A stretch of 32,247 nucleotides of DNA from Gammaproteobacteria bacterium. GTDB taxonomy: Bacteria > Pseudomonadota > Gammaproteobacteria > AKS1. The translations under genes and the position numbers were made by a program. Under the pieces are notes generated by a model. The model had not been told where the DNA came from. It saw nothing but the letters and a program-made list of their open reading frames with translations, and ran no database searches. Shown in pieces: positions 15,324 to 20,806 of this stretch. The stretch's first letter is position 1, and each line of letters opens with the position of its first letter. The DNA is taken from contig JALTKP010000310.1 in NCBI GenBank assembly GCA_027078075.1, positions 1 to 32,247 on the forward strand, in the 5' to 3' direction.

Positions 15324-17357
15324 TTATAACCAATCTTTTTTGTTTGCAGCTACATGCATCAATGTAGCAATAATACGTTTATCATAAATCGTACCAGACT
15401 CGTTGTAGAGTTGGTCTAAAATTTCTTGGTTTGATAGAGGCTCTCGGTAAGCGCGTGGGCTCTGCATAGCGACGAAGGCATTGGCGACAGCCAAAATACG
15501 TGCTGTGATTAATATTTTGTCACCACTGATGCCACCTGGGTAACCACTACCATCAATATGTTCATTCTTCTGAGCAATGGTTTCCAGTACAGGTCCATCG
15601 AATTCTAAATCAATTAATATATTTGATGTTTGAGTAATGGTTGTTTGCAACGTATCACGTTCTTCATCAGTCAGTTCGGTGGTTTTTTCTAATATATCTC
15701 TAGGAATAAATAATTTCCCAATATTAGCTAAGCATGCAGCCAGTTCAAGTGTTTCAATTTCTGTTTTTGAGAGATTAATTTCTTGTGCTATCGACCGAGC
15801 AAGTTTAGTTGTTTTTTGTGAATGATTCGCACTGTCAGGGACATAACTATCTATTACATGTGTTAATGTTTGCACAAGGTGCTTCATTAAGCGCTTATGT
15901 TTGTCTTCGGCATTTCTCAATTCAGTAATATCATGAAGCACAACTAAAGTGTTGTATTCGTTAATTGGGAAAAAACTACAGTGATAGGTTTTAGTGAGGT
16001 TGTTAAAGGTTAGTTCACTAACTACTACAACAGTACGATTATTGTTATGAGCATCTGCAACAAATTTTTGTATTAATTTTCCTGTTTCATATCCAAAACT
16101 TTCAGTAAGTCCTTTGTCGATGAGGTTATCAGGTGTTAGGTTATAAATTGATGCAATAGGAAGATTTGAAAACTGGATACACATTTTTTTATCAATGATT
16201 AAAATAAAATCACCAATATTATTGGTAACTGTTTGCAGCGCTTCTTTTTGTTGTGTTAGTAATGCTGATTTTTCATTTAGTGCGGCAGCATATTTCTGTG
16301 CATATAAGCTGGCACCATGTCTCCACGATGCAATAAGAATGAATAATAACGCAGCAAGACCAAGTGAAAATGAAATTATTAAGCTTTCACGGCGAGCATA
16401 AGATCCCTCTAACGCTTCTGCTGATGAAATGGTTTGTAATAACAGCCAATTTGTATCTTGTATTTCTCGGCTCATAAAAAGTATATCTTTGCCGGTATAG
16501 TTTTTTCGAATAGCAAAGGCGCCAGGATTATCTAGTGCATAGGCTGCAGCCAGATTGTTAACATCATGGGGTAACTTAAGAAACATGTTTTGATGGCTGT
16601 TATTCTTTTTGTTTAAATAAATAATAGAATTATGGTGCCTTCTAACAAGAAGCGTCTCGTCACTTTTAGTGCTAAAGATTTCTTTGTTTAGTAAGGGGTA
16701 AAGTTTATCGCTTAACGTTGTAATACCAATAATGCTGGCTGATGCCTTGTTATTATTAATGTTGTGGGCAGGAACAATAAAAGTAATAACTTGTTGTTTA
16801 TGCTGATCGAGATAAATGTCGCGGAGCTGTTTAGTTCCGGTTTTTACCGAAATCTTAGCTTTTTCTAAACTAAGCTTATCCAGTATTGGCATGCCTGGTG
16901 TGGCAACAATAACCTTGCCATCAGCAGATACGATTGCGATACCTGAGTGCCTAATAGTTGCTACATTTGCTTTTATTGGGCTGGGCGTAATTTTTTCAAC
17001 AAAGCCGCTGTTTTTTGCAGTTTGTATAAGTAAATTTTTAAGGTATGTGCGTTGCGCAAGTTGAACGCTAGTATAATCGCCGTTGTTGTTAGAAAGCTGG
17101 GTCAAGTAAAGTTGTAAAGACTGGTTATTAGCAAGCGATGTTAGCGTTTCATACTGTGATGACATCCAATCATTTAACAGATCTTCGCGTACATCCGCCA
17201 TTAATGATAAACGGTATTGCCAGTTTTGAATATCTCGTTCATATTCATTTGTGGATAGCTTATTAATTAAGCCAAGTCCAATAACAGTAATGGCAACAAG
17301 AATTATTAATGCTAACCATTTTGATAATTTAGTTTGTAATAGTGATACCGACTTCAT
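15324..17357 (-). CDS. Membrane sensor with Cache-like periplasmic region, PAS-like domain and degenerate HD-GYP domain
   Basis: Two TM helices flanking a roughly 300-aa extracytoplasmic region; a PAS-like region (NNIGDFILIIDKKMCIQFSN); C-terminal HIDGSGYPGGISGDKILITARILAVANAF recognisable as HD-GYP, with HD replaced by AN. Confidence 0.8.
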   Translation of the reverse strand: MKSVSLLQTKLSKWLALIILVAITVIGLGLINKLSTNEYERDIQNWQYRLSLMADVREDLLNDWMSSQYETLTSLANNQSLQLYLTQLSNNNGDYTSVQLAQRTYLKNLLIQTAKNSGFVEKITPSPIKANVATIRHSGIAIVSADGKVIVATPGMPILDKLSLEKAKISVKTGTKQLRDIYLDQHKQQVITFIVPAHNINNNKASASIIGITTLSDKLYPLLNKEIFSTKSDETLLVRRHHNSIIYLNKKNNSHQNMFLKLPHDVNNLAAAYALDNPGAFAIRKNYTGKDILFMSREIQDTNWLLLQTISSAEALEGSYARRESLIISFSLGLAALLFILIASWRHGASLYAQKYAAALNEKSALLTQQKEALQTVTNNIGDFILIIDKKMCIQFSNLPIASIYNLTPDNLIDKGLTESFGYETGKLIQKFVADAHNNNRTVVVVSELTFNNLTKTYHCSFFPINEYNTLVVLHDITELRNAEDKHKRLMKHLVQTLTHVIDSYVPDSANHSQKTTKLARSIAQEINLSKTEIETLELAACLANIGKLFIPRDILEKTTELTDEERDTLQTTITQTSNILIDLEFDGPVLETIAQKNEHIDGSGYPGGISGDKILITARILAVANAFVAMQSPRAYREPLSNQEILDQLYNESGTIYDKRIIATLMHVAANKKDWL

Positions 17358-17385
17358 AGGTACCTAATCCTTTGTTGTTATCGAG

Positions 17386-18060
17386 TTATGATGGTAAATG
17401 AATCCACCATTGCTTCTCATCTAGTGAATAGATGGGTATGTAGTGTAGAATGCTTTTATCTGACAATATCTCATCAACTTGATTATCTAAAATCAAAGTA
17501 TCACCGTCTAGGTAAACTGCAAGAATTGCATGAGGAATACCTAGATTAGTATCTTCCAAAATGACTATTCGGCTTTGCAAATTTCTATGCCCTAACCAGC
17601 GCAATGACAGTAGCTTAGTTATTGCATAGTCTTCACAATCGCCACCACGTTTTAGAAACTGTTTCGGTATTGCCCAATAATCGTCAAGATTATAATTATC
17701 GATATCTAGAATATATTCTTTTTTGTTGGCGTAGAGATTTATATTTTTTAATTGGGTTCGAGTATCTTGACCTTTTAATGTTTCAAGGTAGTTTAGCCAC
17801 TGTGTAAGGTGGCAACGATTGAATTCCTGACTGTTACAGTCACCTTCAGGGATATCTTCTTTGATGTGGCGATCCAGAACACTCAACCATTGAGGGAATA
17901 TTTCTAATCCCGCTTGTTTGGTTTCTAGACTACCGAATAATCCAACTGCATATGCAAATGTTGGGGATAAACTCAAAATCAGTAAAATGCTTACAAAGCG
18001 TTTTATTTGTTTTATATGCGGGTTATTTTGTAAAAACTGCCCCAAAAGGTTCTCCAGCAC
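17386..18060 (-). CDS. LapG-like periplasmic transglutaminase-like cysteine protease (BTLCP family)
   Basis: Signal peptide; catalytic-type motifs RGGDCEDYAITKLLSLRWLG (Cys), IPHAILAVYLDGDTLILDNQVDEI (His, Asp). Confidence 0.85.
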   Translation of the reverse strand: MLENLLGQFLQNNPHIKQIKRFVSILLILSLSPTFAYAVGLFGSLETKQAGLEIFPQWLSVLDRHIKEDIPEGDCNSQEFNRCHLTQWLNYLETLKGQDTRTQLKNINLYANKKEYILDIDNYNLDDYWAIPKQFLKRGGDCEDYAITKLLSLRWLGHRNLQSRIVILEDTNLGIPHAILAVYLDGDTLILDNQVDEILSDKSILHYIPIYSLDEKQWWIHLPS

Positions 18061-18201
18061 ATTAAGTCTCTTATGTAATCAGTTGATATTAAGTGAATAT
18101 TCTCTAACAAGCTATTTATTAACAGAGATTGCTATAAATTTCTATCAAGTACGTAAGTAAAAACATCACCTAAATTATGGATTTTAAAAGAATTAATATC
18201 A

Positions 18202-18230
18202 TTGTATAAGCTAGGTGATATAGATAAAAT
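18202..18230 (+). promoter_or_regulatory. Candidate sigma70 promoter for the Slam-like operon
   Basis: TTGTAT, 17-nt spacer, TAAAAT. The spacer contains one arm of an ATCACCTA/TAGGTGAT inverted repeat. Confidence 0.4.
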
Positions 18231-18344
18231 GCTTATGTTTATTATCGAGTGGGGCGATGGTAGACAGCCTTTTGCATTGTCATATTTAAAATACTATCCC
18301 TGATTTTTGTGGTTTTAGAAGCATACAATAATAAGGTGGGAAGT

Positions 18345-19619
18345 ATGAAGTCTGGGTTACGCCACATTGGTTTATTTTTAGTAAGCACATCCTGTTTGTT
18401 TTCGGCACAAGCGTTAGCTGTTGATGCTGAAGCTGAATTTAAAAAGGCTATGGCGGAGAGAGAGAAAGGTAACCTTGATGAATCAATTGTTATCTTTCAG
18501 TCGATTCTAAGTCAGGAGCCAGCCTTACATCGCGCACGTTTAGAATTAGCCGTTGCTTATTATCGTTCAACTCGATTTGAAGAAGCTGAAAGTCAGGCAA
18601 AAAAAGTTCTTAATGAACCCAATACACCTCCTGCAGTACGGTTATCAATTATTGCGTTTCTTGCAAAAATAAAATCAGAACGTAAACGTTTTGAGAAAGT
18701 GGGGAGTACATACAGAACCTCTGTTTCAGCGGGTTATTTGCATGATACGAATGTTAATGTTGGTCCTAATTCCGATGTAATTAATCTGGGTACATCAACA
18801 TTACGTTTAGCAGCTGGTTCAACTCCACAGAGTGATGGCGCAATTACTTTAACAGGAACATTTAATTACAGTTACCAAACAGGCAAGGTTGTAAATGTTG
18901 GTGGTAAGTCTGCTGCAGTCTTGTGGCAATCTCAGGCATCTATTTATAGTAAGCAGTATCAAGAATTATCTGAGTTTAATCTCGATGTTGTTAGTGCTAG
19001 TACTGGTCTTGCTTTTGTTGCCCCAGGTTATTGGCGTAGCAACATTAGTTTGCAGCTTGACAGTATTGAATTGGGCAGTGATTCCTTAGCTTTTTATACC
19101 ACATTGTTACCAAGCGTTACGTGGCAACTTAATAAGACAACAGATTTATCTATTAATGGATCATTAGCAGATCGTGACTTCAAGCAAAGTAATGATCAGG
19201 GTCGTGATAGTTTTTATAAATCAGTGGGTGTGACCTTGGGTAAACGTTTAATGAAAGGTAAGGTCGCACTTCAAGCGGGTTTGACCTTCTTTAATGAAGA
19301 TGCAAAAAATGATCGTTTTAGTCGTGATGGTGCTAAGTTGTTTTTAGGTGCTAATTGGAACGCATGGAAAAATGGTTTGTTGTACGCGACCTTTAGCGAA
19401 CGTGATTCAAAACATGATGACCCTGAGCCACTGTTTAATGAAAAAAGAGATGAGCGTGAGACAAAATTCTTAGTGGGGTTTCGTCATCAGTTTTCCGGTG
19501 ACTATCTGAATAAGTGGGTACTAAAAGGTAGTTACAAGAATACAGATAATGCATCGAATATTGATATCTTTAAGTATGATCGTGAAGTAACGAGTGTCAC
19601 GTTTTCGAGAAGTTTTTAG
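18345..19619 (+). CDS. Slam-like (DUF560, surface lipoprotein assembly modifier / type XI secretion) outer membrane protein
   Basis: Signal peptide; N-terminal TPR region (LHRARLELAVAYYRSTRFEEAESQAKKVL); SAGYLHDTNVNVGP at the domain junction; C-terminal beta-barrel ending in Phe. ATG at 18345 with upstream GGTGGGA. Confidence 0.75.
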   Translation: MKSGLRHIGLFLVSTSCLFSAQALAVDAEAEFKKAMAEREKGNLDESIVIFQSILSQEPALHRARLELAVAYYRSTRFEEAESQAKKVLNEPNTPPAVRLSIIAFLAKIKSERKRFEKVGSTYRTSVSAGYLHDTNVNVGPNSDVINLGTSTLRLAAGSTPQSDGAITLTGTFNYSYQTGKVVNVGGKSAAVLWQSQASIYSKQYQELSEFNLDVVSASTGLAFVAPGYWRSNISLQLDSIELGSDSLAFYTTLLPSVTWQLNKTTDLSINGSLADRDFKQSNDQGRDSFYKSVGVTLGKRLMKGKVALQAGLTFFNEDAKNDRFSRDGAKLFLGANWNAWKNGLLYATFSERDSKHDDPEPLFNEKRDERETKFLVGFRHQFSGDYLNKWVLKGSYKNTDNASNIDIFKYDREVTSVTFSRSF

Positions 19620-19650
19620 ACGCCAGTAGGTTTAAGCGGGGGAGTAGATT

Positions 19651-20760
19651 ATGAATACATATAAGATAATTTCACAAGTAGTTGTAGCATCGTTAGTGAG
19701 CATAGCAACATCGGGTTTTGCTATTACGGAGGATGACTCTGTGCATAGCTGGGGGCCTTGGACGACATTAGTTCAACCAGCAGCAGGTCGAACTGCCCCC
19801 GTTTCAACTACAGTAGCAGGGCCTGTGACGCCAGGTTTTGGGGCAGGTGATACAAATCAATTTACACCGGTTGTAACGACACCAAGCACAACGCCAACAA
19901 CGCCAAGCTCAGGTGATAGTTGTGTGGCTGGTTCAGCATGTAACTATGCTTTGATTTATTCTAGAGGGGACGGTGAAACATCACTCCAAGCGGCAACGGT
20001 GACATTAAATCCTATTCCGGTAAGACAACAAGTTTCAGAACAGCAACCGCCAGGTGATGGGCCGGTAGCTATTCAGGTTGCTCCCGCATTTGAAACGTCA
20101 TTAAATATTAATAGTACAAGTTCATTACCATTATCTATCTCGGTAAATAATGTATTAGTGAATTTTATAAATTCTACATTGTGGCGCTATAACGCGGGCA
20201 GAGATTTTGTCCAAGGCAACACGGTTGATGCAGGCGGTAGCGCTTTCGTATATGGGCTTTCTGAAATATCAGAAGCGGATCGTACGAGAACAATTGGCTA
20301 TTTTATAGCGGGTAGTTTAACGGGTACGGATGAACTTGATGCATTTAATGTGGGCGAAGTTGAAGCAAGTTATGAAGGCTTTACGCTTAATTCAGGTGTA
20401 GAAGTTGCGATTGATGTTGATTTTGGTGCGGGTACTTGGAATGGTAGCTGGAATGATGGCAATGATGGTGGCGTTAGAGCAGTAATGAGCACTGATGGTG
20501 TTAATGTTCTTAAGGGGGCTGTCGGTTTTAATGCGGAAGGGGTCATAGATGGTGCAAATTTGGTTTCAACCTCTATCTCGGCAAGTGATGCCACGTCTAT
20601 CTCTGGAACAATAGATGGCTCGTTCTTTGGTGGTGGAGCCTCTGTACTGGCTGGTTCACTGGAGATTAAAAAATCTACTCAAAACTACACTGATGGTGAA
20701 TATCAGGATTTATATGTAACGAGTCGAAATGTTACTTTGCCACAGGCTAGGCCAGAATAA
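19651..20760 (+). CDS. Secreted Slam-cargo-like protein with Thr/Pro-rich linker and TbpB-like C-terminal barrel
   Basis: Signal peptide without lipobox; TTPSTTPTTPSS linker; CVAGSAC cysteine pair; C-terminal IDGSFFGGGASVLAGSLEI resembling the terminal barrel strands of TbpB-type cargo. Directly downstream of the Slam-like gene. Confidence 0.6.
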   Translation: MNTYKIISQVVVASLVSIATSGFAITEDDSVHSWGPWTTLVQPAAGRTAPVSTTVAGPVTPGFGAGDTNQFTPVVTTPSTTPTTPSSGDSCVAGSACNYALIYSRGDGETSLQAATVTLNPIPVRQQVSEQQPPGDGPVAIQVAPAFETSLNINSTSSLPLSISVNNVLVNFINSTLWRYNAGRDFVQGNTVDAGGSAFVYGLSEISEADRTRTIGYFIAGSLTGTDELDAFNVGEVEASYEGFTLNSGVEVAIDVDFGAGTWNGSWNDGNDGGVRAVMSTDGVNVLKGAVGFNAEGVIDGANLVSTSISASDATSISGTIDGSFFGGGASVLAGSLEIKKSTQNYTDGEYQDLYVTSRNVTLPQARPE

Positions 20761-20775
20761 TTTATTGTTTAAATC

Positions 20776-20806
20776 AAAAAAAGCGGCTTTTTAGCCGCTT
20801 TTTTTG
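20776..20806 (+). terminator. Intrinsic terminator after the cargo-like gene
   Basis: AAAAAAGCGGCT-TTTT-AGCCGCTTTTTTT. Confidence 0.9.

Follow-up and report, generated by a model that had tools for sequence, protein, structure and literature searches.

A LapG-like protease and a pseudo-HD-GYP receptor recurrently encoded beside a Slam-like exporter and a tagged cargo

Background

Control of surface adhesins by cyclic dimeric guanosine monophosphate (c-di-GMP) has been described in several systems based on LapG proteases, and the present analysis concerns a four-gene locus in which such a protease is encoded next to a Slam-like exporter of the type XI secretion system (T11SS). The locus lies in a contig of a gammaproteobacterium of the AKS1 lineage (JALTKP010000310.1, assembly GCA_027078075.1), and the whole stretch analysed, 32,247 nucleotides in length, is hereafter called the window.

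The closest described system is DvhG/DvhD (BfsG/BfsD) of Desulfovibrio vulgaris (Font et al. 2026, PMC13090378), which likewise combines a calcium-dependent LapG-family protease, a [T/A/P]AAG target and a receptor with the transmembrane (TM)-dCache-PAS-pseudo-HD-GYP arrangement in which the catalytic HD and HH motifs are lost. The HD motif reads SQ in DvhD but [A/C]N in the receptors of the module described here, and DvhG cuts large adhesins of the type I secretion system (T1SS) behind a folded retention domain, whereas the target in the module would be a Slam-type cargo of ca. 370 residues carrying a short tag (PMC13090378). The LapG/LapD/LapA system of Pseudomonas has in common with the module the protease family, the cleavage motif and, as expected, inside-out control by c-di-GMP; the module receptor, however, is a pseudo-HD-GYP protein and not a GGDEF-EAL protein with LapD_MoxY_N, and canonical LapG-LapD pairs occur separately in the genome. 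No T1SS genes were recognised beside the module, although no profile search aimed at T1SS was made. Control of a non-T1SS substrate by LapG is known from CdrA of P. aeruginosa (type Vb, T5b), which differs from the module in its two-partner exporter CdrB, its very large adhesin and its LapD receptor (PMC4694147).

Regarding export, two papers (PMC8406197, PMC12282271) describe T11SS with the TPR domain and 14-stranded barrel, and cargos with the C-terminal TbpB-like barrel, that are also predicted for the locus; soluble (SPI) cargos are known there for TXISS-1B. The Slam protein of the module differs in belonging to a divergent subfamily which mostly falls below Pfam cut-offs, and a protease and a receptor are added. 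Neither LapG, transglutaminase-like proteases nor HD-GYP proteins are mentioned in the searched parts of the main text of these two papers, and the searched literature, which did not include preprints and supplements, yielded no LapG coupled to T11SS. LapG with a pseudo-HD-GYP receptor (DvhDG), control of a T5b substrate by LapG (CdrA) and soluble T11SS cargos are known already, and the new part, as far as that literature goes, is their combination. To a first-pass annotation of this DNA, no described system of such composition was known. Neither the non-T1SS substrate of a LapG nor, in itself, the pairing of LapG with a pseudo-HD-GYP protein is new, the receptor being related to DvhD, which has been published.

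Results

A conserved four-gene locus

Between pssA and leuA, the window carries two divergent gene pairs with a common intergenic region, all four genes being located where the first-pass annotation had placed them:

15324-17357, minus strand: DvhD-like receptor with a TM segment, a periplasmic dCache-like domain, a second TM segment, a PAS domain and a pseudo-HD-GYP domain (Pfam, PDB profile match, motifs)
17386-18060, minus strand: LapG-like periplasmic cysteine protease (Peptidase_C93) with a signal peptide (PF06035, NF045674 and PDB profile matches)
18061-18344, no strand: intergenic region common to both pairs, ca. 285 bp (sequence)
18345-19619, plus strand: Slam/T11SS-like outer-membrane protein with a signal peptide, TPR helices and a 14-stranded barrel (TPR_Slam, AlphaFold)
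19651-20760, plus strand: secreted, non-lipidated cargo of 369 residues (open reading frame (ORF), AlphaFold)

Gaps of 28 bp and 31 bp separate the genes of the minus-strand pair, in which LapG comes first, and of the plus-strand pair, in which the Slam-like gene precedes the cargo. The start listed for the Slam-like gene was a GTG at 18309; the ATG at 18345, which comes with a ribosome-binding-like sequence, is the better one.

Co-localisation of LapG and Slam across genomes had been set beforehand as a test of their coupling. A scan of ca. 85,000 species genomes with an alignment of eight LapG sequences found 118 relatives, of which 80 were retrieved, giving 81 loci with that of the window; the same scan with the single LapG sequence of the window returned no relative. 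A Slam gene is found within 3.6 kb of LapG in 72 of these 81 loci, divergent in 62 and on the same strand in 10, and six of the nine loci devoid of Slam come from contig ends or short contigs. The receptor gene adjoins LapG in 78/81 loci. Among 11 canonical LapG loci, neither Slam nor the conserved cargo tag described below was detected (0/11 for both). In a second genome of the same genus (G001), all four genes occur at the same pssA/leuA site, with 77-81% identity for the first three and 49% for the cargo; because of this shared position and of the 72 loci with Slam, the arrangement is not a matter of chance. Pairwise distances for LapG, for the receptor and for Slam are also correlated with one another over 58 loci (r=0.82-0.87), a level reached in none of 1000 label permutations.

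The hosts of the module LapG are Gammaproteobacteria (Thiohalobacter, Thiogranum, Neptuniibacter and others), Betaproteobacteria (Sulfuricella) and Desulfobacterota (Desulfobulbaceae); the conserved four-gene cassette is one of sulfur-cycle and marine bacteria. Sulfuricella sp. T08 has two LapG and HD-GYP pairs around one Slam in a single locus (L103, L105). In G083, a single-contig genome that is 100% complete, Slam is split into two overlapping ORFs (L042:7660-8966), which may stem from a frameshift, faulty assembly or recent pseudogenisation.

The protease and its receptor

The LapG-like protein matches PF06035 (E=1.9e-15) and NF045674 (CystProtLapG; 9e-21), the latter with 74 bits against an equivalog cut-off of 320, which makes it a divergent member of the family. 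A profile of its family matches the LapG structures 4u65 (7.5e-24) and 4fgo (9.3e-22) in PDB. The triad Cys142-His177-Asp192 and the calcium-site residues Asp141 and Glu143 are all present, and all five are invariant in 58/58 relatives. That the protein might be the canonical LapG was rejected, as canonical LapGs are separate paralogs with ca. 27-29% identity and an adjoining LapD. In a LapG tree whose deep branches are long and whose branching order is unsure, the Slam-linked sequences cluster apart from canonical LapG and have a sister branch with LapG and pseudo-HD-GYP but without Slam. Sister pairs of this type were seen in three genomes (L173, L174 and L175 in G059, G307 and G195, respectively); the first is possibly a gammaproteobacterial T1SS system of the DvhDG type, since a repeat protein and genes of HlyD-like and TolC-like type are found close by. 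Canonical LapG-LapD pairs are present twice in the genome of the window (L011, L017), implying that two Lap-type circuits coexist there; G001 has such a pair as well (L018).

The receptor matches HD_5 (E=1.7e-39), PAS and, weakly, dCache_1 of Pfam. The top PDB match of a profile built from eight receptor sequences is 9rc0/9rbz, deposited as 'HD domain/sensory box protein' (E=3.5e-76). This entry, the closest solved relative, is taken to be DvhD: once its GYP tyrosine is numbered 621, the residues that the DvhD paper names come to lie where expected. In the window, HD is changed to AN and HH to KN while GYP is retained. The first-pass annotation had spoken of a pseudo-c-di-GMP receptor, and the loss of the metal motif is general: HD is replaced by [A/C]N, and the first His of HH by Lys, in 58/58 relatives, which for the most part retain the GYP loop, R635 and Y637. 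Six of the eight c-di-GMP contacts described for DvhD are retained in the window (equivalents of L577, Y621, M646, R650, Y652 and E668); of the other two, K582 is conservatively changed to R and Y523 is lost (D). Judged from these residues, the metal site is lost and most of the c-di-GMP contacts are retained. DvhD, an established c-di-GMP switch, binds c-di-GMP without hydrolysis (PMC13090378), and by analogy the module receptor would bind it as well. Among 12 genomes of the class with the module LapG, nine have a single LapG and eight lack a LapD domain; as the module LapG is thus the sole LapG, with no LapD, in ca. 8 of 12 genomes, the pseudo-HD-GYP protein seems to be its natural partner.

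The exporter

The outer-membrane protein had been proposed to be a DUF560/Slam-related barrel, and this assignment was borne out at the family level. TPR_Slam was detected in 15/15 family members at E<=0.01 and SlipAM (PF04575/DUF560) in 7/15 (best 7.6e-8), the window protein itself matching TPR_Slam with E=6.7e-8 and 33.3 bits, for a cut-off of 35.2 bits. Its AlphaFold model (predicted local distance difference test score (pLDDT) of 89) has 14 long strands besides five TPR helices. Barrels of T11SS are described as having 14 strands and that of PgaA as having 16 (PMC8406197). Foldseek returned porins (OmpG, CymA) on top, which fits a 14-stranded barrel and names no family. A PF04575 search of the window's own genome gave no match and was uninformative, since the controls likewise gave none. 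By analogy with known systems, this protein would export the cargo encoded next to it.

The cargo and its tag

Three regions can be recognised in the cargo:

19651-19722, plus strand: signal peptide, residues 1-24, ending ...SGFA|ITEDD, no lipobox (by-eye prediction)
19735-19788, plus strand: conserved tag D29-SVHSWGPWTTLVQPAAG-46, putative LapG recognition/cleavage site with the scissile bond expected at A44/A45 (motif conservation)
20245-20730, plus strand: C-terminal TbpB/fHbp-like beta-barrel, about residues 199-360 (AlphaFold, Foldseek)

In the AlphaFold model, residues 1-89 and 108-196 are disordered while ca. 199-360 have a pLDDT mostly of 80-96. The best Foldseek matches in PDB are TbpB (4o4u, 1.5e-5) and NHBA (6cuj, 2e-5), followed by fHbp. 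TbpB and fHbp are themselves Slam substrates. Profile matches of the window cargo to TbpB_B_D (4.9e-5) and slam_lipo (2.7e-4) are both below cut-off; in the set of 16 long cargos, these domains were found in 7/16 and 9/16, respectively.

When the cargos of the window and G001 are aligned, a block HSWGPWxTLVQPAAG with one differing residue directly follows the signal peptide, and diverged cargos have the consensus S[VA]xxWGxW-x4/5-PAAG. In 50 non-redundant tags, G and the second W are invariant (50/50), the first W is found in 48/50 (Y in 2), P in 49/50, the first A in 47/50, the second A in 50/50 and the final G in 43/50 (otherwise A); these counts lean upward because the loose pattern by which tags were gathered presupposes part of the motif. 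Among the 16 long cargos, 14 of which have just 19-31% identity to that of the window, 12 columns are invariant: six in the barrel and, in the tag, S, W, G, W, A and A. The PAAG matches the published LapG consensus [T/A/P]AAG, in which the cut is made between the alanines (PMC13090378). Cargos of Neptuniibacter (L117) have TAAG as in Pseudomonas LapA, which is within the known degeneracy, and two tagged cargos occur per locus in L117 and L098. Many cargos (L059, L073, L095, L104 and others) display a second short motif, RP-x-D/E-x-x-x-F, after PAAG and before a proline-rich linker, and it is also seen in short tagged proteins that have no barrel. Conservation of the tag could, partly or wholly, reflect protease docking.

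Of 58 loci in which at least 1 kb of sequence follows Slam, 52 have the tag in its loose form, and three more show it by eye. Across 369 genomes of the class, it occurs in 11 of the 12 with the module LapG subfamily and in 0/357 of the others (Fisher p=3e-20, relatedness among genomes being ignored), the twelfth having a degenerate WGPW...PLAG. Matches to the pattern in other genomes come without an SVxxW context and were set aside as chance. The tag is found once per genome, twice in a few loci, and this single occurrence led to rejection of a multi-protein sorting signal of the PEP-CTERM kind. A profile search with the window and G001 cargos yielded seven further genomes of the class, all with a tagged cargo. 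In five of these the other three module genes adjoin it, one being G083 with its split Slam; G125 has no local Slam beside its LapG and receptor, and in G102 the cargo contig is devoid of other module genes, LapG being on another contig.

Short tagged proteins and locus boundaries

A secreted protein of ca. 230 residues with a VPLPA-CTERM (TIGR03370) tail is encoded downstream of 24 of the 26 short tagged proteins for which enough downstream sequence is available. Such a gene follows 10/23 long tagged proteins and is found elsewhere in 4 among about 5,900 ORFs; loci concerned include L045, L047, L065, L075, L080, L087, L095, L101 and L106. It would be a fifth member of the module and does not occur in the window.

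In the intergenic region common to both pairs, promoter-like sites were not above shuffled expectation, and Rfam had no match in the window. One further element was read from the sequence, the pattern scan not having listed it:

20777-20806, plus strand: terminator-like stem-loop and T run ending the slam-cargo pair, AAAGCGGCTTTTTAGCCGCTTTTTTT

Discussion

In the mechanism proposed, the cargo would be made with an ordinary signal peptide and its mature N-terminus would start with the tag (DSVxxWGxW...PAAG); after it would come a disordered linker and the TbpB-like barrel, which Slam would recognise in moving the cargo to the surface. The pseudo-HD-GYP receptor, binding c-di-GMP without hydrolysis, would restrain the periplasmic protease from the cell interior, holding it at high and freeing it at low c-di-GMP if control runs in the same direction as in the analogous systems. 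Upon a drop in c-di-GMP, the freed protease would cut between the two alanines and remove the tag. Most likely, the tagged N-terminus would hold uncut cargo in or at Slam or the outer membrane and cut cargo would be released, a reading suggested by the position of the tag, which would take the role of the N-terminal lipid in classical Slam substrates.

The LapG/Slam coupling guessed by the first-pass annotation has strong comparative support, both from its recurrence and from PAAG in a near-invariant cargo tag; retention and release of the cargo are what we infer from it. That the four genes form a single functional module, in which a Lap/Dvh-type proteolysis switch acts on a type XI (Slam) cargo by the mechanism proposed, is probable. 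The narrower reading, in which a c-di-GMP-governed LapG acts on a tag that replaces the Slam lipid anchor so that soluble cargo is surface-held and released on demand across Gammaproteobacteria, Betaproteobacteria and Desulfobacterota, is tentative, a real possibility that we would stop short of calling probable.

Several observations weigh against the proposed release mechanism. The family matches of the window Slam and cargo remain under curated cut-offs, and some tags have no di-alanine (PKAG in L063, PSAG in L081, PLAG in L172). The window cargo has just ca. 20 residues, predicted to be disordered, from the signal peptide to the cut; a folded retention domain like that of LapA is missing, as are the targeting helix and DP turn of LapA. 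Finally, 28/56 tagged proteins are complete, short, proline-rich and without a barrel, so that 'tagged Slam cargo' does not cover all members; the model fits proteins of the window type well but those of the short type poorly.

The shortness of the tag, its place directly after the signal peptide, the removal of only ca. 20 residues and the lack of a retention domain in most cargos would also suit plain maturation, in which LapG trims the tag from every cargo before or during export, exposing a new N-terminus or removing a chaperone or targeting element; c-di-GMP would then set the amount of mature cargo without any tethering. This is somewhat unlikely, as a DvhD-type receptor exists to restrain its protease and is better suited to regulated release than to constitutive trimming. 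Some relatives also have longer or lipid-anchored N-termini before the tag. A lipobox-like start is found in 4/56 tagged proteins and is convincing in two (L048, L058), where a lipoprotein start is followed by a coiled-coil-like stretch and then by the tag; such a long upstream anchor does not accord with maturation and, since the stretch separates the lipid site from the tag, fits a cleavable anchor.

The short proteins bear on another scheme, in which the tagged protein is a partner rather than the main cargo. Its N-terminus would be placed at the pore of Slam, on the periplasmic face, and cutting it would open or shut the exporter to another protein, for example the neighbouring VPLPA-CTERM protein of many relatives. 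About half of the tagged proteins being short, proline-rich and barrel-less, with the VPLPA-CTERM-type gene next in 24/26, speaks for such a plug or gate; it is nonetheless unlikely, the window having a long tagged protein with a Slam-type barrel and without a CTERM neighbour.

It is less likely still that LapG and receptor serve a T1SS adhesin encoded away from the locus, as is the case in Desulfovibrio, their proximity to slam and cargo reflecting shared regulation only. DvhDG and canonical LapDG do act on T1SS adhesins (PMC13090378), and both the two canonical pairs of the window genome and the sister pairs without Slam are in line with it. Against this, the linked cargo has a nearly invariant LapG motif, the tag is found once per genome and accompanies the module LapG only, and LapG and receptor distances co-vary with those of Slam.

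The remaining alternative is a polysaccharide exporter, PgaA-like, with the module serving c-di-GMP-controlled matrix export; TPR and barrel architecture is common to PgaA and PelB, and CTERM neighbours are typical of exopolysaccharide-producing bacteria. It is highly improbable given 14 predicted strands against the 16 of PgaA (PMC8406197), the TPR_Slam and SlipAM matches, the TbpB/fHbp-like barrel of the window cargo and the lack of any glycosyltransferase seen at the locus.

If the release mechanism holds, two separate fields would be joined, namely c-di-GMP control of surface adhesins by Lap/Dvh systems and type XI (Slam) secretion, and the LapG switch would be a portable module acting on at least three export routes (T1SS, T5b and T11SS). 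With its predicted scissile bond, the module is directly testable. It would further provide a searchable cargo tag for environmental T11SS, so far poorly assigned to cargos, and would suggest a means by which non-lipidated Slam cargos are kept at the surface.

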